Virus record (IMG/VR): IMGVR_UViG_3300025276_000200
Location: 1 to 25,171 of that record
From: a virus
DNA: 25,171 nucleotides
Strand: one strand, 5' to 3'
Part shown: positions 1-21,818 of the stretch, one piece after another
Layout of the letters: every line of letters starts with the position of its first letter
Numbering within the stretch: position 1 is the first letter of the stretch
Notes under the pieces: generated by a model
What the model saw: the letters and a program-made list of their open reading frames with translations, nothing else
Databases searched by the model: none
Told to the model about the DNA's origin: nothing
Translations under genes and position numbers: made by a program

Positions 1-513
1 TAAGTTTCCTGATATTAGCTTATTTCTAAAGTTTGTTGCTCTAATAGCAAGATTTTCTCCTGAAGGTACTAAAGCTAATCCCTCTACATTAGTTAGGTTT
101 TTAAATGTTGATATACGTTTTAAATCAATTAAATCTTCTTCTCCTCTTATTCCTGTAACAGCATAAAAGTTTTCTGTTGGTCTGTCTTTAGCATATACCT
201 TAGCATTTAACATAGGGTTAGGAACTCTATCGTATATTACTACTTCTCCTGGTAAATATTTAGCGTATATTTCCCATATTGCCTTAGATTTATCTGCTCC
301 TAAACCATTACGATCTTTTCCTCCTATGAATATAACAACTTTATTTATTGGTTCTGCCTTAGAGTCTTCTCCTTCTAAAGCCTTTATACCTGCTTCTTTA
401 TAATCATCAAGGCCATATAGCTTTCCAGTGAAGGAACCGTTAAGTAGACTCTTAACGACTTCAAAATGACCTCTATGAGGTGGTTTAAATGCTCCTGGGT
501 ATAATGCTATCAT
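1..513 (-). CDS. HxGH nucleotidyltransferase (cytidylyltransferase-like), C-terminus cut by window edge
   Basis: I translated this by hand from an ATG at 513-511; the frame stays open for 171 codons to base 1, so the C-terminus is missing. The N-terminus reads MIALYPGAFKPPHRGHFEVV. It contains the (H/R)xGH nucleotide-binding motif (P-H-R-G-H, residues 12-16) of the nucleotidyltransferase superfamily, which includes NMN, pantetheine-phosphate and glycerol-phosphate adenylyl/cytidylyltransferases. Near the window edge, IRATNFRNKL resembles the second family motif (ISxTxxR), so both halves of the active site are visible. Members transfer a nucleotide from NTP to a phosphorylated small molecule and release pyrophosphate. 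The substrate cannot be read from sequence; an NMN adenylyltransferase-like role in NAD synthesis is only a guess. The ATG overlaps the kinase stop as ATGA, so the two are probably translationally coupled. It is cytosolic, with no signal peptide. Confidence 0.85.
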   Translation of the reverse strand, partial: MIALYPGAFKPPHRGHFEVVKSLLNGSFTGKLYGLDDYKEAGIKALEGEDSKAEPINKVVIFIGGKDRNGLGADKSKAIWEIYAKYLPGEVVIYDRVPNPMLNAKVYAKDRPTENFYAVTGIRGEEDLIDLKRISTFKNLTNVEGLALVPSGENLAIRATNFRNKLISGNL

Positions 514-1448
514 GCTAAGAATGATTGTACTTTAGTATCTATTTCTTTAGGTGTTGAATGTTTTAGTAGTTCTTGAAATTCAGGTGAATATATCATGTCA
601 GCGATACTGGTTAGTACTGCATCGCTTTTTTCTTTTTCGCCAACACTTTTATCTTTATATTTTTTTACCGTGTCTTTAAGTTTATCCTCACCTGGTCCAG
701 TACCTATTTTTTGATAAGACTTAAGGAAGGCTGTTTTTAAAGCTTTATCTTCTGATCTGTTATCTTTATTCCAATCGACGTTTACTACAGCTTTATTAAA
801 TTCTTGTTCCTCTTCTGAAGACATTACTACTGGTTTAAAGAAAGAGCTTTTCCCTGCTCCTGTCTTTTCGTTATATGCAGCTAAGTAGTCTTTAATACCG
901 TTAATGCCGTTTTTAGCAGCAGTATTAAATGCCTCTACTTCATTAGTAAATTTACCTCCGTGATCGTTTACAAATATTGAAAGATTACCTTTAGTCTTCT
1001 TTTGAAACTCACCAATTTTTTGATAAGCGTTTCTCCAAGTTGAGAAAACTGATGCTGCAGGTATATTTCTACCTCTAGAGAAGTTAGAGATATAAGAAAT
1101 CATAGGGTGACTATATACTAGTATCATATATATATCATAACCTAATGAAATTAACTTATTTAATGTTTCATCAAATCTAACTCCCGATGCTGTTGTATCC
1201 CATAAAAAACTCATTTTATCATCTGCAGCGGCATTTACGTCTTTATTTATTTGGTTTGATGCAGCTCCTAGGTTATTATGGTAGGGATGATCTGGATCTT
1301 CAACGTATTTGTCTGGATTAAAAGAAGTTAGTCCTTCTATACCGAGTTGGTTAAGTAGATATGTTTTCCCAGAGCCTGCTCCTCCTGCCATTATTACAGC
1401 TTTAGGTTTATTACTATCTTCGGTTAATATGTGCATTAATTTAATCAT
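510..1448 (-). CDS. Zeta-toxin-like P-loop kinase with putative capsid-targeting leader
   Basis: This is a 312-aa P-loop kinase. The Walker A motif AGGAGSGKT is at residues 21-29. It is followed by FNPDKY (D46 aligns with the zeta-family catalytic Asp region), HPY at 54-56 and WDTTASG at 83-89. This order fits the zeta-toxin/PezT-like kinase fold, whose best-known members phosphorylate UDP-N-acetylglucosamine; the substrate here is unknown. Residues 200-312 are lysine/glutamate-rich and match no domain I recognise. The first ten residues, MIKLMHILTE, resemble the leader of the small genes at 4096-6407 and end in L-T-E, the T4 prohead-protease cleavage pattern. I infer that the protein may be packaged in the head. 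It overlaps the neighbours on both sides by ATGA (1448 and 513). No antitoxin-like gene lies beside it, which argues against a classical toxin-antitoxin pair. It could also be a metabolic or nucleic-acid kinase. Confidence 0.72.
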   Translation of the reverse strand: MIKLMHILTEDSNKPKAVIMAGGAGSGKTYLLNQLGIEGLTSFNPDKYVEDPDHPYHNNLGAASNQINKDVNAAADDKMSFLWDTTASGVRFDETLNKLISLGYDIYMILVYSHPMISYISNFSRGRNIPAASVFSTWRNAYQKIGEFQKKTKGNLSIFVNDHGGKFTNEVEAFNTAAKNGINGIKDYLAAYNEKTGAGKSSFFKPVVMSSEEEQEFNKAVVNVDWNKDNRSEDKALKTAFLKSYQKIGTGPGEDKLKDTVKKYKDKSVGEKEKSDAVLTSIADMIYSPEFQELLKHSTPKEIDTKVQSFLA

Positions 1449-2332: not shown

Positions 2333-3115
2333 TTATAGTTTAAGTGTAGTAGGGTAACTATTATAAATAGGTTCAACTACGGGATGTTCTAATCCGTATA
2401 GTCTATATATAAGTTGAAATAGTTCAAAGTTCTCTTCAATTTTGTCTATTTGTAATACTTTCCATCCTTTACCCTGTATTACATTTTTCTGTTTAGAGGG
2501 TCCTCTACTTTGAGCTTTAAGCCAAATGATACCTGTCCTATCAATTTTCTGGTTTTTAGATTCTTCTAACGCTTTTGCATATGAAGCTAACTGAAGATCA
2601 AAAGACTTGTGTACTGAGTTGGATGTTTTGATGTCTAGTAACCATATTTCTCCATTCATTTTACATACAATGTCTGCTGTACCTGCATACTTATGTTTAT
2701 CTGACCATACAAATTCTTCTGCAGAAATAAGTTCTGGTTTATGAGTTGTCCAGAAGTCATGAAACTTTAATATCATTTCCCATACAAGTTGGCTATATTT
2801 AGCTCTACCGTAATCATCCATCCATGTTACTTCATTTCCTAGTATCAACTGTTCTGCAGCTTCATGTACTTGTGTACCTTCTTTACCTGCTCTACGCATA
2901 ATAAGATCAGCGTTATGCCCAACATCCTTCATCCACGATTCGAAGAACTTATTCTTGGGCATATATTGGAGTATTGTAGTTACGGACGGGTAATATACTC
3001 CTTCGCCTCTCTTATAGACTCTACGGTCTAAAAAGTTTATTTGCTTTAATTTAGGGTTAAAGTCTAATTTCTTTTTTTCATTCTGTTCTAGAATGTTCAT
3101 ACCTTGTTTTATCAT
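2333..3115 (-). CDS. RecB/Cas4-like PD-(D/E)XK exonuclease
   Basis: This 260-aa protein carries all the landmarks of the RecB-family PD-(D/E)XK nucleases. They are an upstream conserved His in GTQVHE (H84), an acidic residue at E134, the metal-binding Asp in YAGTADIV (D148), the D-x-K pair in LLDIKTS (D161, K163), and Q-x3-Y in LQLASY (Q175, Y179). Family members are Mg-dependent DNA exonucleases that act in recombination, repair or degradation of host DNA. The gene starts four bases inside the end of the primase gene (ATGA), placing it in the replication/recombination group. An internal Met at position 6 is a possible alternative start, but the ATGA overlap favours the first. Comparable stand-alone nucleases are common in T4-like phages of aquatic bacteria. 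Its exact role is not fixed by the sequence. Confidence 0.85.
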   Translation of the reverse strand: MIKQGMNILEQNEKKKLDFNPKLKQINFLDRRVYKRGEGVYYPSVTTILQYMPKNKFFESWMKDVGHNADLIMRRAGKEGTQVHEAAEQLILGNEVTWMDDYGRAKYSQLVWEMILKFHDFWTTHKPELISAEEFVWSDKHKYAGTADIVCKMNGEIWLLDIKTSNSVHKSFDLQLASYAKALEESKNQKIDRTGIIWLKAQSRGPSKQKNVIQGKGWKVLQIDKIEENFELFQLIYRLYGLEHPVVEPIYNSYPTTLKL

Positions 3116-4035
3116 AAATCTAGCTTATGCATCATTAGACTGCTAAGGTCTAATTCTTCTGCTGTTTTAATTAAATCTGTAAATGACTTAAAGCCCATGT
3201 TAGATGGGTCTTTTTCTTTCATATCAATTAAGAATACTCTTTTACCGAGGTTTAAGAATTGTTCTGATATTTGTAATGCTTTTGTTTTAGCATCATTATC
3301 TAATGCAATGTATATATCTTCAAGAGGGCTTATAAGAATCTTTTTGTATAGAGCTGTAGAGATTGACTTTCCTAGTATGGGTATGACATTACGTTTTATA
3401 GCTATAGCATCAAATACACCTTCACATAGTATGATAGGCATATTCCAATTAATTAAGTTCTCAAAGAATATTATATCTTTTGAAGTTTCAGGGTTCTTGT
3501 ATTTAAAGTAATCCCCCTGGTAACTTCGTGCAACAAAGAAATTGAGTTGATTGGATCTAGAATAACTTGGAATAATAACTCTTCCTCCATACTCTCCACT
3601 TGCTGCGTATCCAATACCATATTTAATAAAATCTGTTGAGCTAAGTCCTCTTGCATATAGGTATTTTTTAATTAAGTTAGCTGTAACTGATGTTGTTGTT
3701 GCATTTTGAAGCAATTGAAACTCTTTTGGTAGTTCTAATATAGATAGGTGTTTGTATTCCACCTCATTCCCTTTCGGTACAAACTTAAGAATATCTACTG
3801 CTTGATCACGAGGTGTTTGCAACTGTCTTAATAGGGACCTAATCGTAGTCCCTCTAGTTTGACAAACCCAACATTCCCAGTAGTTCTTACCTTCTTCGTT
3901 AGTAAACATATTAATTTCTAACTTAGGTTTGCGGTGATTGCAAAAAGGGCATGAGAAAGCATAATTATCTCTAGCTCTCTTATGACTCTTACCTAGTATA
4001 TTCTCTATACTTCCTAAAAGAAAAGCGTAATCCAT
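3112..4035 (-). CDS. 61: DNA primase, DnaG/T4 gp61 type
   Basis: This 307-aa protein has the two hallmarks of a bacterial-type primase. An N-terminal zinc-binding module contains C29-x2-C32 and C55-x2-C58. A Toprim catalytic domain has the metal-binding Glu in PIILCEGVFDA (E205) and the D-x-D pair in ALDNDAK (D246, D248). The central segment (about residues 120-180, with RGL, IGYA and RVIIPSY) matches the RNA-polymerase core of DnaG-like primases. There is no helicase domain, so it should work with a separate replicative helicase, as T4 gp61 works with gp41. It makes RNA primers for lagging-strand synthesis. Its length is slightly below T4 gp61 (about 340 aa). The start follows a 60-base intergenic stretch that contains nested inverted repeats, and no Shine-Dalgarno sequence is present. 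Confidence 0.93.
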   Translation of the reverse strand: MDYAFLLGSIENILGKSHKRARDNYAFSCPFCNHRKPKLEINMFTNEEGKNYWECWVCQTRGTTIRSLLRQLQTPRDQAVDILKFVPKGNEVEYKHLSILELPKEFQLLQNATTTSVTANLIKKYLYARGLSSTDFIKYGIGYAASGEYGGRVIIPSYSRSNQLNFFVARSYQGDYFKYKNPETSKDIIFFENLINWNMPIILCEGVFDAIAIKRNVIPILGKSISTALYKKILISPLEDIYIALDNDAKTKALQISEQFLNLGKRVFLIDMKEKDPSNMGFKSFTDLIKTAEELDLSSLMMHKLDL

Positions 4036-4095: not shown

Positions 4096-4290
4096 TTATT
4101 TGTTTTGGAGCAGTTCGTTAATAGCAGTTGCTACTGTAATCCTTATAAGGTCTCTGTTGCCTGTGTCTAGGAATTCTTCTAGTTGATTTGTTATAGATTC
4201 AGTTAGTTTATTGATATCATCATTAGACATATCTACTTCTGTTCTTGCTACAATAGTTTTATCTTCTAGTATAATTTTGGATAGTTTCAT
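4096..4290 (-). CDS. Small leader-bearing protein, putative capsid-internal
   Basis: This is a 64-aa protein of unknown function. It begins MKLSKIILE, followed by Asp, so it carries the shared leader and an I-L-E site. If cut after Glu9, the mature product would be about 55 residues. It is acidic in the middle, with a predicted amphipathic helical C-terminal half (about residues 27-62), and has no known domain. The start overlaps the preceding gene's stop by ATGA (4290-4287), so the two are likely co-translated. A leader of this kind on such a short protein resembles T4 internal proteins, which are small, head-packaged and injected. This is an inference from the leader only. Confidence 0.65.
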   Translation of the reverse strand: MKLSKIILEDKTIVARTEVDMSNDDINKLTESITNQLEEFLDTGNRDLIRITVATAINELLQNK

Positions 4291-4631
4291 TTTACATCGC
4301 TTTGTGAAAACTCGAATTGTATTCTAGGATAGTAATATCTATCCCCATCATCATCATAGTAATTAGCTTCTGATGTTACATTATATTTTCTGGTTTTAAG
4401 GAACGCTACTACTTGTCTAAATGTGTCATCTGGAAGTGCTTCTTCAACTTTAAATTCAACTGATCCATATCCTTTCCCTGCATTAGGTCCGTCCTCAACA
4501 TAATGCCCCATACTAACCATTGGATTATAATCACCGTATCCAACAGTAAGCTCTTTTGTTATATCGAGAGCTACATGCTTATATTTATCATAGTCATGTC
4601 CTTCTGTTAAGATAATATCTGATAGTTTCAT
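4287..4631 (-). CDS. Leader-bearing protein, putative capsid-internal
   Basis: This is a 114-aa protein that begins MKLSDIILTE and then G-H-D. The leader ends in L-T-E at residue 10, matching the (L/I)-x-E prohead protease pattern. The rest looks like a small alpha/beta fold. It has a Tyr/Gly/Asp-rich segment (GYGDYNP), a stretch GYGSVEFKVEEALPDDTFRQ, a helix containing VVAFLKTRKYNV, then an Asp/Tyr-rich loop and a strand YYPRIQFEFSQ. I recognise no family. The next gene starts inside its stop (ATGA at 4290-4287). The upstream sequence has TATAAAATAACTTAA before the ATG and no Shine-Dalgarno sequence. The strongest clue to function is the shared leader. Confidence 0.65.
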   Translation of the reverse strand: MKLSDIILTEGHDYDKYKHVALDITKELTVGYGDYNPMVSMGHYVEDGPNAGKGYGSVEFKVEEALPDDTFRQVVAFLKTRKYNVTSEANYYDDDGDRYYYPRIQFEFSQSDVK

Positions 4632-4641
4632 TTAAGTTATT

Positions 4642-4908
4642 TTATAGTTTCCAAACTTTGAGAGTTATATCACCTGTTCCTTTTATAAGTCTGTGGTAAG
4701 TCTCTTTAGGTATAAATAGTTTACTATTACCGAACTCCACAGGTACTGTATTGTCTAGTTGTAGCTTCCAATCAGAATAATTAATAGGCTGTACGTACCT
4801 ATCTTCTTTATCTCTATGCCAAACATATTCAAGTGATGAGGTACTCTGTAAAAACTCTCTCACAGAATACTCCTTACCTAATGTTTCTTTGTAGGGTTTA
4901 TTATTCAC
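4642..4908 (-). CDS. Small hypothetical protein with GTG start
   Basis: This is an 88-aa protein read from a GTG at 4908-4906. No ATG lies in this frame upstream before a stop codon. It is rich in Lys, Tyr, Trp and Asp. The middle has EYVWHRDKEDRYVQPINYSD and the C-terminal part has PVEFGNSKLFIPKETYHRL, which would suit a small beta-rich protein. It lacks the MKLxxIIL leader of its neighbours. Its start codon lies within the last codons of a 23-codon small ORF (4972-4901), so initiation could depend on translation of that ORF. I recognise no family; the tight spacing on the downstream side supports a real gene. Confidence 0.55.
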   Translation of the reverse strand: MNNKPYKETLGKEYSVREFLQSTSSLEYVWHRDKEDRYVQPINYSDWKLQLDNTVPVEFGNSKLFIPKETYHRLIKGTGDITLKVWKL

Positions 4909-4972
4909 TTGGTAAACAAGCAGATGGTGCGATTTGATAATCGTTTAGTGGTAGTAGTAATAACTTTTTCAT
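4901..4972 (-). CDS. Candidate 23-codon leader peptide
   Basis: In the 85-base gap between genes, an ATG at 4972-4970 opens a 23-codon frame that starts MKKLLLLPLNDYQI and ends in TAA at 4903-4901. The product has a basic start, a leucine run and one Cys at position 19, somewhat like a truncated signal peptide. Its stop overlaps the GTG start of the next gene by 8 bases, an arrangement that suits translational coupling. Without conservation data it could be chance. Confidence 0.3.
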   Translation of the reverse strand: MKKLLLLPLNDYQIAPSACLPSE

Positions 4973-4993
4973 TAAGGTGAAAATTTAAAATAA

Positions 4994-5311
4994 TTATCCG
5001 TGTTTAATAATTAACTCTCCTAGAACCTCTAACCTCCCCATTTCTTTTTGAAACGCCGTCTGGCTCATAGTAGAACTAATTTTTTTGTGAGTCTCTTCAA
5101 ACTCTTTTTGAGCTGCTTCTAGATTAAATTTTCCGTCAGCTGCTTTTTTATAATAAGAAAGCTTTACGTTAAAGTGTTCATAAGTTAATAATGAATCACC
5201 TCCTTTTTCTTTAGCAGATGAAGCAATTTTACTTGCTCCTTTTTCTCTACCTTCAGCAAAGTCATCGAAAGTTTCTTTTGTATCCTCTAATATAAGTTTA
5301 ATTAATTTCAT
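4994..5311 (-). CDS. Leader-bearing charged helical protein, putative capsid-internal
   Basis: This is a 105-aa protein that begins MKLIKLILE, then Asp-Thr; the leader ends in I-L-E at residue 9. The remainder is highly charged and almost entirely helical by composition, with many Lys, Glu and Ala (for example EGREKGASKIASSAKEKGGD and the helix around NLEAAQKEFEETHKKI). No membrane segment, Cys pair or catalytic motif is visible. Small, charged, helical proteins with a trimmed N-terminus are what T4 internal proteins look like. That supports, but does not prove, packaging in the head. The start lies 3 bases after the upstream stop. A weak TAGGA sits too close to the ATG to be a normal ribosome-binding site. 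Confidence 0.65.
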   Translation of the reverse strand: MKLIKLILEDTKETFDDFAEGREKGASKIASSAKEKGGDSLLTYEHFNVKLSYYKKAADGKFNLEAAQKEFEETHKKISSTMSQTAFQKEMGRLEVLGELIIKHG

Positions 5312-5314
5312 ATC

Positions 5315-6100
5315 CTACCAATATCCTGAAAAGTTAGCGCTGCCGCCTAATGATTTCCAATAGCGACCTATATTACAGGACCAGTACCCTGCTTTTGTTT
5401 TGTCTTTCTTAGTAGCACATTTATGTCGTGCTGCAAAAGATGCTCTTGCTCCTTTTTGTTTAAACTTAACTGATAAGTTAGTATCTCCAAAAGATACTTT
5501 TTTTACATTACCTTTTTTAGATTTAACATATACGTAGAATTTTTTAGAGCCTCCACGTTTAGGTTTGTTAAGTTTTACTTTTTTACCTTTATATTCTAGC
5601 TCATTCATATATCCGACTGAGGCTTTTATCATGTCAAATCCAGAATAGTCAAATGATTCATTTTGAATACTAACTGCTTTCCTAAATTTATCCATATTAA
5701 TATTTGCTCCAATTGATTCTACTAGCTCTTTTATTAAATCAAAATCTATCATTTGCTCGATAGTAGAGGCTTCGTCGATTGTGTCCTCGTTTTCAATCAT
5801 ATCGTCAATTAGACAGCCAATTTCAAATAGTGGGTTATATTTTGCAGAGACCATTGGTAAGTCTAAAGGTACCCTCATACCATTATAATCTGCGTATTCT
5901 CCTATGTCAGTTGTTTCTAAGAGCTCTCTATCTGTTTCGTTTAACTCAATAGCTTCGTCTCTAAGAGCTTCTCTTGCTTCATTAAACAATTGTATAAAGG
6001 CTTTAGAGTTATAACGGTAGACATGCTCATGCAATGAGAGCTTATTGTCTATATGGTAAGCTAGAGATGGGTATCCTAATATATCTTTTATTCTTATCAT
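5315..6100 (-). CDS. Conserved phage protein with C-terminal ARHxC...YWSC module
   Basis: This 261-aa protein is made of two parts. Residues 1-130 include YHIDNKLSLHEHVYRYNSK and an acidic helical stretch ending near GEYADYNGMRVPLDLPM. This resembles a domain I recall from aquatic T4-like phages, but I cannot name it with certainty. The C-terminal part (about residues 165-261) is Lys-rich. It contains SFGDTNLSVKFKQKGARASF, then ARHKC (224-228) and YWSC (239-242). This His/Cys-containing signature recurs at the ends of many phage and algal-virus proteins of unknown function. The H226/C228/C242 spacing might bind a metal. The N-terminus MIRIKDIL looks like a degenerate form of the leader in neighbouring genes but lacks the Glu. 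Its position among putative head-packaged genes hints at a virion role. Confidence 0.7.
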   Translation of the reverse strand: MIRIKDILGYPSLAYHIDNKLSLHEHVYRYNSKAFIQLFNEAREALRDEAIELNETDRELLETTDIGEYADYNGMRVPLDLPMVSAKYNPLFEIGCLIDDMIENEDTIDEASTIEQMIDFDLIKELVESIGANINMDKFRKAVSIQNESFDYSGFDMIKASVGYMNELEYKGKKVKLNKPKRGGSKKFYVYVKSKKGNVKKVSFGDTNLSVKFKQKGARASFAARHKCATKKDKTKAGYWSCNIGRYWKSLGGSANFSGYW

Positions 6101-6101
6101 A

Positions 6102-6407
6102 TTATTTCATTTCTGGGTGAAACATAAATTTTATTATTTTTGCATCTTTAGATACTTCTACACCGTCTATCTCTATTCCTATAGGATAAGGCTTAGTCTT
6201 ATCGTCTGCCCAGTATGCTACATCGTAACTTTTATCTTTATTGCTAGTTACTAGTAATCCTCTATTATATGTATCCTCCTCTGCTTGGAGTACAACCATT
6301 TTATCAGTAGGAAGAATCATATCACCCATTAGTTTGATATCTCCTTCGTCGTAACCGTCGTCGTTGTACCTGTTATCTTCTTTTAGAATTATATCTGCTA
6401 GTTTCAT
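6102..6407 (-). CDS. Leader-bearing acidic protein, putative capsid-internal
   Basis: This is a 101-aa protein that begins MKLADIILKE, then Asp-Asn; the leader ends in L-K-E at residue 10. An Asp/Tyr-rich linker (RYNDDGYDEGD) follows. Next come alternating hydrophobic strands (KMVVLQAEE, RGLLVTSNKDKSYDVAYWADD, IGIEIDGVEV, AKIIKFMFHPEM) that look like a small beta-barrel or SH3-like fold. I recognise no family. Its ATG overlaps the GIY-YIG gene's stop by ATGA, and a single base separates it from the next gene. The leader links it with the genes starting at 4290, 4631, 5311 and 1448. Confidence 0.65.
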   Translation of the reverse strand: MKLADIILKEDNRYNDDGYDEGDIKLMGDMILPTDKMVVLQAEEDTYNRGLLVTSNKDKSYDVAYWADDKTKPYPIGIEIDGVEVSKDAKIIKFMFHPEMK

Positions 6408-6898
6408 ACTTTAAAGTCTTTACGGTAAAATTTACCGAGTACGTTATCATTTATATGAGAACTGTATTCATCCTCTAATACGTTATTAATAAATAGGTGT
6501 TTAGTCTCATAATAGGTTAACAGCTTTTTATTAGGTACAAATTCAAGGATTCTTTTTTCCCAATTCTCTTGAGCATTATCTTTTTTAGATATAGCTAATA
6601 TTTCTTTTTGAGAACCATAATAAGATTTCCAATCTGATTCTGTTACTACTTTTTGCTTAAGTGGAGTCCTACCGCCTATTCCTTTTGCCTTTCTATCTAA
6701 TCTTAATTCCTCTAAAGCTCTTTTACCTAGTCTTTTATTACGTTCAAAGTAGAGAACTTTTTTTCCTATGTATCTAGTATCAGTTGGTTTATGAATTACT
6801 TCATATATAAACCCATAGGTACCTTTTGGCATATCTGAAATGTCAGTAATTAACCTCCCCTGGTGTGACCAGGTAGGTTGTGTTGGCATGTTTTTCAT
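6404..6898 (-). CDS. GIY-YIG family endonuclease (Seg-like, free-standing)
   Basis: This 164-aa protein carries a GIY-YIG nuclease core. GFIY (residues 29-32) and RYIG (42-45) are separated by the usual short beta-hairpin. They are followed by WKSYYGS (90-96), the helix ENWEKRILEF (111-120), the candidate catalytic Glu in YYETKHLF (E131) and a conserved Asn region HINDNVLGKF (148-157). T4-like phages carry such nucleases as free-standing homing or intergenic endonucleases that cut DNA of competing phages. No separate DNA-binding domain (NUMOD or zinc finger) is visible, so this is the catalytic module almost alone. It sits just after the long tail-fibre gene, a variable locus where homing enzymes often insert. 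Two perfect short inverted repeats lie in its coding sequence, at 6423-6437 and 6859-6873. Confidence 0.75.
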   Translation of the reverse strand: MKNMPTQPTWSHQGRLITDISDMPKGTYGFIYEVIHKPTDTRYIGKKVLYFERNKRLGKRALEELRLDRKAKGIGGRTPLKQKVVTESDWKSYYGSQKEILAISKKDNAQENWEKRILEFVPNKKLLTYYETKHLFINNVLEDEYSSHINDNVLGKFYRKDFKV

Positions 6899-19895: not shown

Positions 19896-20305
19896 TATTG
19901 TTCGAAGTTAATAATTACTTCATCTTCTATGTTAGTATCTTGAACAGTGTACGACATTGCAAACTGAACTGTGTGTGTGTCTGGGTCTCCTACTGTAGTT
20001 AGGTTGATTATATTTACTCTAGGAAATAATACTTCCATATCTCTTTCTACAGTTGATTGAATTTGACTGACCTTTTCTTGTGTTAGATTATCAAAAAGTA
20101 AGTTTTGTAGTCTATTCCCAAAATTAGGATTCATAAAGCGTTCTCCTTTGGCTGTTAAGAAGTAATTGATTATATTGGTTTTAAGTGCATCTTTAGACGT
20201 GTAGGTAGAGTTAAAAACAGCTTTTCCAGAAAACGGAAGGGCTACCCCTACTGCTTTACTAGGTTGTGTGTCTATTACGCTAAGTCTTGTTACTTCAAAT
20301 GCCAT
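19895..20305 (-). CDS. 25: Baseplate wedge protein gp25
   Basis: This 136-aa protein matches gp25/gpW in length (T4 gp25 is 132 aa) and layout. PFSGKAVFNSTYTSKDAL is followed by the family core GERFMNPNFGNRLQNLLFD (about residues 54-72) and a C-terminal beta part, TVQFAMSYTVQDT. In T4 it joins gp6 and gp53 in the wedge and contacts the sheath. It is often annotated lysozyme-like, but there is no reason to expect enzyme activity here. The stop of the preceding gene overlaps its start (TAATG), as does its own stop with gp6. Confidence 0.95.
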   Translation of the reverse strand: MAFEVTRLSVIDTQPSKAVGVALPFSGKAVFNSTYTSKDALKTNIINYFLTAKGERFMNPNFGNRLQNLLFDNLTQEKVSQIQSTVERDMEVLFPRVNIINLTTVGDPDTHTVQFAMSYTVQDTNIEDEVIINFEQ

Positions 20306-20751
20306 TATCTACGTCCTTTTTCTTTATCTTTTTCTATTGAGGCTTTATATATAGCGCCTGCATTTTTTAAAAATGGAAGTGTGGATAAATCAAGACCTGG
20401 TGCAGGACCTGTATTTTCTGTCATTCCCATTTGAGATGCTCCTCTTGAAGCAAAATTAGGTGCAATTGGACCTGAGGTTCCTGATATGTTTTTATATTCC
20501 TCGTTAGACATGGTGTTAGCAGTCTGATTTAACATTTCTTCTAACGTGGACGACTTACCTGATGTCCATTGTTGTTTTTTTAATTCTTTTTTCGGTGCTG
20601 ACCAGCTTGTATTACCTGCTTCTGGGGCTGCAGTCATAGTTGTTGGAGCACTGGCTGCTTTAACAGCCTCGTTCATAACTTCTTGTAGCTCTGCCTTTAT
20701 AGCAGATCTAACCTCTTCTCGTATGATTTTTCTTAATTGATCGAGTTTCAT
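20305..20751 (-). CDS. Putative virion-associated protein with amphipathic N-terminal helix
   Basis: This is a 148-aa protein that begins MKLDQLRKIIREEVRSAI, a strongly amphipathic helix. An Ala/Pro/Thr-rich linker follows (about residues 30-55). Then comes a low-complexity region with Gly, Ser and Met, ending in a Lys/Arg tail EKDKEKGRR. No domain is recognised. I recall similar N-terminal helices in phage proteins from aquatic metagenomes. The first residues resemble the leader of the 4096-6407 genes, and IRE fits the (L/I)-x-E pattern, but the helix runs on, so the relation is uncertain. It lies between the 349-aa protein and gp25, 17 bases after the former. An assembly or hub-linked role is possible. 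Confidence 0.65.
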   Translation of the reverse strand: MKLDQLRKIIREEVRSAIKAELQEVMNEAVKAASAPTTMTAAPEAGNTSWSAPKKELKKQQWTSGKSSTLEEMLNQTANTMSNEEYKNISGTSGPIAPNFASRGASQMGMTENTGPAPGLDLSTLPFLKNAGAIYKASIEKDKEKGRR

Positions 20752-20768
20752 ATATATAAATAGTTGTA

Positions 20769-21818
20769 TTATGCAAGTTGATTATCTATTCTGAATTTAA
20801 TTTCATCTATTAGTACAGTTTCAGAAGAACTGTAGGATTTAGCACCTCTTAGCACTACTATATTATTTAGGTTTTTAGCTACTGCGAACCTTTGAGGTGC
20901 TATAGTAGACCCTTCTACATCTAACTCTACATTTAACTTATATACAGTACCGTCTGGTCCTACATGTGAGTACTGTGTATCTGACAGGTTACTCGTCTGT
21001 CTATCGGAAGTAGCTTGATATGTATCTATTAAATCTTTTAAACTATTTGAATCGTCGAGAGATGGAAGTAGCTCTATAGCGCTGCTAAGTACAGTTGCTG
21101 CTTCTGATTGAGCACTTAGTTCTTGTTGTTCGTTGTTATTAGGGTAGTACGTACTTCCGTCAGTATTAAATTGAGTAGTACCAAGGAATATAGGTATAAG
21201 AGATGTGAATATATACTCTCCTTTATCATTTAGTAATCCTGCAGCTATTAACTGTTCTTCTGTTAGTTTGCCGTTTGTTACTTCTTCTTTTAGTGCATTT
21301 TCTATTTTGCAAGCTATAATTGGTAGTTTAGCTGATTGTACTTTCTTGTTTATGTTATCTATAAAGAGTATAGACGGTGCTACCATAGTTTCAATAGAGC
21401 TTACATTTTCTTTTATAGCTGCAATCATTTCTAATAAAAGTATTAGCTGTTCTGTAAATTTATTAGTGATAGATATGGGTATACCTACACCAGGGGGCAC
21501 TGCTTGTGGAATAGGTATGTTACCTATCACATTAATTGCTATTTCTAACCCTGTTAATGGGATGCCTAGTTTAGTAGCCATCCTCTTAACCTTGTTGGTT
21601 TTTTTTGCAGTACTGTTTATAGTACGTTGCATTTGAGAGATTGTCCTTGAAACTTGATTTAGTTTTTGTAGATGCGGACAGCCTTCTCTTCTAAAGTCGT
21701 CTATCACTTCAAATAGCTTACTTAAGACTTTTTGTTTAAGTATACCAAGAGTTTTACCTACTTGCGGGGCAAGGGCTGCTACTAATTCTTGTTTATTTGG
21801 AAATTTAATATATGGCAT
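20769..21818 (-). CDS. Baseplate/tail protein of unknown role, hub-adjacent
   Basis: This is a 349-aa protein between the gp5-like spike and gp25. The N-terminal half is helical and basic (TLGILKQKVLSKLFEVIDDF, QRTINSTAKKTNKVKRMATKL). A hydrophobic Gly/Pro/Ile-rich stretch follows at about residues 85-130 (IAINVIGNIPIPQAVPPGVG), then a helix with MIAAIKENVSSI. The C-terminal 80 residues are beta-rich (YKLNVELDVEGSTIAPQRFA, then NIVVLRGAKSYSSSETVLID). I recall this ending from tail proteins of aquatic phages. Function is unknown; a hub or wedge part or a tail-tube end protein is plausible. The start overlaps the gp5-like stop (TAATG). Confidence 0.7.
   Translation of the reverse strand: MPYIKFPNKQELVAALAPQVGKTLGILKQKVLSKLFEVIDDFRREGCPHLQKLNQVSRTISQMQRTINSTAKKTNKVKRMATKLGIPLTGLEIAINVIGNIPIPQAVPPGVGIPISITNKFTEQLILLLEMIAAIKENVSSIETMVAPSILFIDNINKKVQSAKLPIIACKIENALKEEVTNGKLTEEQLIAAGLLNDKGEYIFTSLIPIFLGTTQFNTDGSTYYPNNNEQQELSAQSEAATVLSSAIELLPSLDDSNSLKDLIDTYQATSDRQTSNLSDTQYSHVGPDGTVYKLNVELDVEGSTIAPQRFAVAKNLNNIVVLRGAKSYSSSETVLIDEIKFRIDNQLA

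Follow-up and report, generated by a model that had tools for sequence, protein, structure and literature searches.

N-terminal leaders resembling prohead core-protein C-termini as putative cleavable docking tags in T4-like phages of Bacteroidetes

Described systems of head-packaged proteins

In phage T4, the internal proteins IPI–III (MKTYQEFIAE) and Alt carry an N-terminal targeting sequence of about 10 residues, which is cut by the prohead protease gp21. The initial 10 residues are enough to target IPIII, its residues 8 and 10 control cutting, and the residues for targeting and for cutting are separable (PMC9026906). The T4 internal proteins are injected, and all three inhibit GmrSD restriction enzymes (PMC12373910). 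It is still described as an unsolved question in what way T4-type targeting sequences recognise the prohead core (PMC9958956). In the giant phages of the phiKZ/SPN3US type, which carry diverged paralogs with shared N-termini (PMC5694885), a prohead protease removes N-terminal propeptides (A/S/G-x-E) from packaged ejection proteins. In herpesviruses, the C-terminal tail of the scaffold VP22a/VP21 holds on to the capsid protein until its release at the M site, and the P22 scaffold has a C-terminal coat-binding domain, which was used for engineered cargo loading (PMC12474303, PMC9962691).

The proteins described here share with the T4 system a leader of about 10 residues on unrelated bodies, gene turnover, a hydrophobic-x-Glu cut site and a gp21-type (Peptidase_S77) protease in the genome. 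However, the leader sequences differed from MKTYQEFIAE and formed several interchangeable classes, more than 100 cargo body families were found across the group, and some cargoes were concatenated. The T4 internal proteins are basic (pI 9.6–9.7, two IPs), whereas the cargoes here were mostly acidic. In addition, the leaders matched the C-terminal tails of core proteins, whereas no matching tail was seen when the C-termini of T4 gp22, gp67, and gp68 were compared with the T4 leader by eye. The small cargoes of the window had no Pfam or PHROG match, either to the bodies of T4 internal proteins or to any other family. The propeptides of the phiKZ/SPN3US type, in contrast, are mostly longer than 100 residues and belong to another protease family and site, and scaffold-tail copies were not reported for them in the literature examined. 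The herpesvirus and P22 scaffolds also dock through their C-terminus, and in herpesviruses a protease site severs the dock, whereas here natural, unrelated cargoes appear to carry the docking peptide again as an N-terminal tag. No report of scaffold-tail copies as cargo leaders was found in the open-access literature.

Leader genes of the window and the prohead protease site

The window, an IMG/VR virus fragment of 25,171 nucleotides, matched positions 21224–46394 of the 177-kb virus contig IMGVR_UViG_3300027714_002764 (G001) in reverse orientation with 99.96% identity. The nearest isolate was Flavobacterium phage vB_FspM_immuto (immuto, MW353175; gp6, 58% identity), in which a cut after Glu is predicted for genes 40, 41, 103, 176–179, 184, 188, 189, 191, 194, and 195. 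The leader genes of G001 and immuto were located between the tail genes and the terminase-portal-protease-scaffold-capsid block, and in G001 the cargo cluster ran on to the genes of this block. Starts outside immuto and the annotated records were taken from our own gene caller, which placed the start as annotated in 212 of the 224 annotated immuto genes called (239 in all).

The five starts and leader sequences given by the initial annotation were reproduced, all on the minus strand and ending in (I/L)-x-E at residue 9 or 10 (Table 1). The bodies were unrelated, as it had claimed, and fell into separate clusters with no common Pfam or PHROG family. Orthologs of gene 4994–5311 carried the leaders MKLRDIILE, MRLLELLRE, and MKLLHLIKE. 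Its predicted structure was all-helical (pLDDT 70), and a PDB search with this model gave no match with E below 2; the prediction for the cargo of gene 6102–6407 was set aside (pLDDT 59). Gene 5315–6100, with a C-terminal domain of phrog_7595, kept the Glu of its longer leader in 32 of 35 orthologs. The mature cargoes were mostly acidic, with pI values of 4.3–6.4 in four small ones and 7.1 and 8.7 in two others. A T4 late-promoter-like sequence in the window, TATAAATA, was set aside as only weakly above chance.

Table 1. Leaders and associated features of the window (window positions).
Feature	Position	Strand	Remarks
Leader MIKLMHILTE	1419..1448	-	On gene 510-1448 (zeta-toxin-like P-loop kinase); predicted cut after Glu10
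Zeta-toxin/polynucleotide-kinase-like cargo enzyme	510..1448	-	302 aa after leader; Pfam Zeta_toxin 2.9e-9
Cargo cluster	4096..6407	-	Flanked by GIY-YIG gene (6404-6898) and primase (3112-4035)
Leader MKLSKIILE	4264..4290	-	Gene 4096-4290; cargo 55 aa, pI 4.3
Leader MKLSDIILTE	4602..4631	-	Gene 4287-4631; cargo 104 aa, pI 4.8; relatives in IMG/VR
Leader MKLIKLILE	5285..5311	-	Gene 4994-5311; helical cargo 96 aa
Longer leader MIRIKDILGYPSLAYHIDNKLSLHE (25 aa, other type)	6026..6100	-	Gene 5315-6100; predicted cut after Glu25
Leader MKLADIILKE	6378..6407	-	Gene 6102-6407; cargo 91 aa, pI 4.5

Gene 20305–20751 of the window (MKLDQLRKIIRE-E...) was a borderline case. Its protein adjoins gp25 in a baseplate gene neighbourhood and starts with MKLDQLRKIIREEVRSAIKAEL; relatives retain this N-terminal amphipathic helix, which is similar to the KKSxL leader class.

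The strict leader regex matched 5 of the 29 window genes, whereas 300 shuffles of residues 2–25 gave 0.05 matches on average and at most 1. None of the 581 genes of four Bacteroidetes phages lacking gp21 was matched, and neither was any gene of the phages HTVC008M and S-PM2. A broader motif, defined as two hydrophobic residues, any residue and Glu at 7–16, was overrepresented in the head/late block in all genomes tested (Fisher p 4e-6 to 0.02), with block edges set after inspection. T4 served as a positive control, and the 31 matches to this motif in it included 61.1 and the known or inferred substrates gp21, gp22, gp24, IPI, IPII, and Alt. Of these, gp24 (MAKINELLRE) is known to lose 10 residues.

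The Peptidase_S77 protein encoded by G001 matched T4 gp21 (PDB code 5jbl) with an E value of 1e-24. The site of the leaders was present in the gp21-type protease and in the scaffold, where the initial annotation had suggested looking for it, and also in the capsid protein. It was invariant at the N-terminus of the protease itself (63/63 distinct sequences; LLTE/SK, VLKE/AK, slash marking the site), in the scaffold (12/12; AIAE/AK), and at the N-terminus of the capsid protein (27/27; MELNQLLE/S). A second capsid site at residue 58 (IVAE, IVSE or LVSE) was invariant in 29/29 distinct sequences and is the counterpart of FLTE65 of T4 gp23, the known cut position. In the leader of the window kinase, the Glu was kept in 25/25 distinct orthologs and the residues before it varied. 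The encoded protease and the conserved site in protease, scaffold, and capsid protein strongly support the head targeting and gp21-type trimming that had been proposed for these proteins.

Leaders in relatives without the protease, a case at odds with this proposal, were sought and were absent from all near-complete genomes; the protease was found in 15 of 15 contigs, namely those of at least 100 kb carrying a leader or tail of the classes scanned. Three candidates for leader contigs without protease were rejected: the matches in G020 and G035 were unrelated to frame (ORFs of 11 and 8 codons), and that in G038 looked like a chance match. G019 (111 kb) proved to be truly related; it was rejected as a protease-less genome and regarded as a fragment because its capsid gene was missing too.

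Leader classes, cargo bodies and core-protein C-termini

The expectation that the leader allows genome-wide listing of such proteins was borne out by scans of IMG/VR with leader patterns, in which all counts are lower bounds. The exact DNA pattern for MKLxDIILxE was found in at least 120 stretches, compared with 3 for the same codons permuted. Among the matches listed, 119 of 124 opened a frame of at least 50 aa or ran off the contig, the bodies were of 18 unrelated kinds, and 100 of 120 loci were immuto-like by gene content. In total, at least 580 leader-bearing proteins of 227 body families were collected, a regex-based set with some false members and with families split at E=1e-5. The initial annotation had missed the further leader classes and the link to scaffold tails; examples of leaders are KLSDIILTE, RMQKLAGIITE, and NFDLKKFLVENKLT.

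The C-terminal tail of the scaffold, ...EVSEQVxR(M/W)QKLAGII(K), was conserved in about 40 orthologs, and two immuto proteins carried this peptide as an N-terminal leader, MKKQILSEQFRRMQKLAGIITE/S. The matches listed for RMQxLAGI in IMG/VR comprised 57 C-tails of scaffold orthologs, 55 N-terminal leaders, 1 internal copy, and 3 truncated cases, and the leaders listed were attached to 46 unrelated bodies. Both uses of the peptide occurred together in several genomes, including immuto and two genomes of about 180 kb each that lie outside the immuto-like loci (G043 and G045). A hydrophobic-x-Glu site followed within 7 residues after 55 of 58 RMQ leaders, whereas Glu was found there in 5 of 117 tails; therefore, the leader was read as the scaffold tail extended by a cut site.

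A second peptide, NFDLxxFLxENK, was found among the matches listed as 120 leaders on 51 body clusters and as 2 internal copies, and the core protein upstream of the protease in G001 ended in NFDLRKFLKENK. The leader class of the window, KL(S/T)(D/E)(I/L)(I/L), matched the C-tail of the immuto-clade homolog of this core protein (SLKDLL, SLSELLK, SLTDLI). This was the weakest of the three leader-tail pairings, with the tail motif, in a regex written after the tails were seen, present in 32 of 44 distinct tails of that family versus 3 of 2708 other proteins. In G001, the genome of the window itself, no core tail matching the KLxxII leader was found, the SLKDLL tail being that of the immuto clade. 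At the level of sequence, each leader is a short amphipathic peptide equivalent to the C-tail of a prohead core protein (RMQKLAGII; SLKDLL or NFDLRKFLKENK), followed by a gp21-type hydrophobic-x-Glu site.

Leader and body behaved as separate modules. When kinase orthologs with MAGGAGSGK-type bodies were compared, the leader was MIKLMHILTE in the window, MKLSDIILAE in L293, and MINLTDLILE in G008, and it was MIPFILKE in Pelagibacter phage HTVC008M and MKTFAELQE in Methylophilales phage Melnitz. The Glu was invariant across all five despite the differing leaders (three lineages), and the kinases bearing MIKLMHILTE and MKLSDIILAE were 78% identical. The kinase seems to be tagged in the dialect of each lineage, since HTVC008M and Melnitz represent other T4-like lineages. 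Leader classes were also swapped on homologous bodies in four body families, such as RMQ and NFDL in one case (55% over 188 aa) and KKSxL and NFDL in another (67% over 169 aa).

The cargo of gene 6102–6407 was found alone behind a leader or, elsewhere among the phages, following a different cargo, with ILKE, VLRE or GITE precisely at the junction. Fusion junctions carried the site in 6 of 11 independent contexts, compared with 1.3 by chance (p=0.003), evidence that is modest once contexts are collapsed and possible start mis-calls removed. A first count of 46 of 70 contexts was dropped as redundant and partly due to start mis-calls. Judging from these junctions, a single tag may bring in several cargoes, which would be separated later by cleavage. 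In proteins of G004 (36342–37934), L061 (1921–3051), L511, and L555, the leader NFDLKKFLxENKLT, complete with its Met, occurred a second time internally, which looks like the fusion of two tagged genes through loss of a stop codon.

Several related N-termini were also observed. Microcystis phage Mel-JY01, a distant gp21-positive relative, has the same leader pattern in two paralogs, MIKLKSLLQE/IISDRVWHLT and MIKLMSLVTE/TISDRVWHVT (60276–60926 and 62056–62718). Many proteins of L278 (2398–11819) share another recurrent N-terminus, approximately M..ITESQLKxLxE (e.g., MNILITESQYKLITE, MKLQVTESQLKLIEQ, and MTKKLKITESQLKMLVE), which may be yet another leader class. The leader-bearing protein of immuto gene 178 (103366–103806; 146 aa) and its orthologs have a YLGEGDYGAAY-like sequence after the leader, which recalls the glycine loop of protein kinases.

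Proposed mechanism, alternatives and significance

The leaders are most probably removable prohead-docking tags, each joining the equivalent of a core tail to a gp21-type site, by which the cargo would be docked, freed in the head and probably injected. During head assembly, the tag would dock the cargo where the tails of the core proteins dock, most likely on the inside of the capsid lattice or at the core itself. The gp21-like protease would cut after the Glu and leave the cargo free inside the head, and the DNA would then be packed on top of it. In analogy with the T4 internal proteins and Alt, the cargoes would probably be injected together with the DNA and act early, in anti-defence or host takeover. 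Packaging and trimming of the leader proteins are well supported by the sequence comparisons, and injection is probable from the T4 analogy.

The proteins might be targeted and trimmed in this way and yet remain inside the head, serving in assembly or in DNA organisation, a possibility that is unlikely but has to be taken seriously. The great variety and turnover of the bodies (18, 46, and 51 clusters among the matches listed) fit effectors better, and enzymes among the cargoes, such as the zeta-like kinase and a 5'-nucleotidase, suit effectors more than structural parts. However, the gene at 69095 of G001, with a conserved leader, sits among head-completion genes, the protease and the capsid protein bear the same site and are no injected effectors, and T4 gp67 and gp68 are core proteins of such a sort (PMC9958956). 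It is rather improbable that the leader is an uncut helix which binds the core or another late complex with the conserved Glu as binding surface. The hydrophobic pattern alone could bind, and conservation of Glu is no proof of cleavage, but the Glu has the same context as in the real gp21-type sites of capsid, scaffold, and protease, the scaffold C-tail is the same peptide lacking this Glu in nearly all cases, and the site is retained at the domain junctions of fused cargoes.

Since overlapping ATGA starts in clustered genes could allow recombination at the 5' ends, the shared N-termini might be left over from a common 5' end, such as a translation-start cassette, that was duplicated or recombined, and play no part in targeting. 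The different peptides of one pattern on orthologous kinases and the presence of the same peptides at scaffold C-tails make this very improbable. Short hydrophobic N-termini are common, but chance or N-terminal composition bias was rejected by the shuffles, the control genomes, and the permuted-pattern scan, and its probability is negligible.

With the leaders read as removable docking tags, it seems reasonably likely that Bacteroidetes T4-like phages load a large, fast-changing cargo set into the head by natural mimicry of scaffold and core tails, with several interchangeable tags, each a core C-tail plus a protease site, on well over 100 cargo families and sometimes on concatenated, cleavable polyproteins. 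Because the tags would copy the phage's own scaffold tails on more than 100 unrelated kinds of protein, head-carried proteins could be listed from sequence alone, and hundreds of unannotated small phage genes would become one defined class of proteins carried in the virion. Since GmrSD is inhibited by each of the three T4 internal proteins (PMC12373910), the cargo genes become candidate genes for injected factors that counter host defence.

In G001, gene N-termini at 124037–137300 (contig also listed as L116) matched the QueC, QueD, QueE, FolE, DpdA, and QueF genes of immuto (18607–37015), so that the DNA is probably 7-deazaguanine-modified; injected proteins would then plausibly act against type IV restriction systems.

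In the laboratory, a small native tag by which cargo is loaded into a Flavobacterium phage head and subsequently released would be of practical use. As to how targeting sequences recognise the core, the occurrence of the same peptide as scaffold C-tail and as cargo leader would offer a concrete, testable answer, namely that the leaders borrow the docking site of the scaffold.
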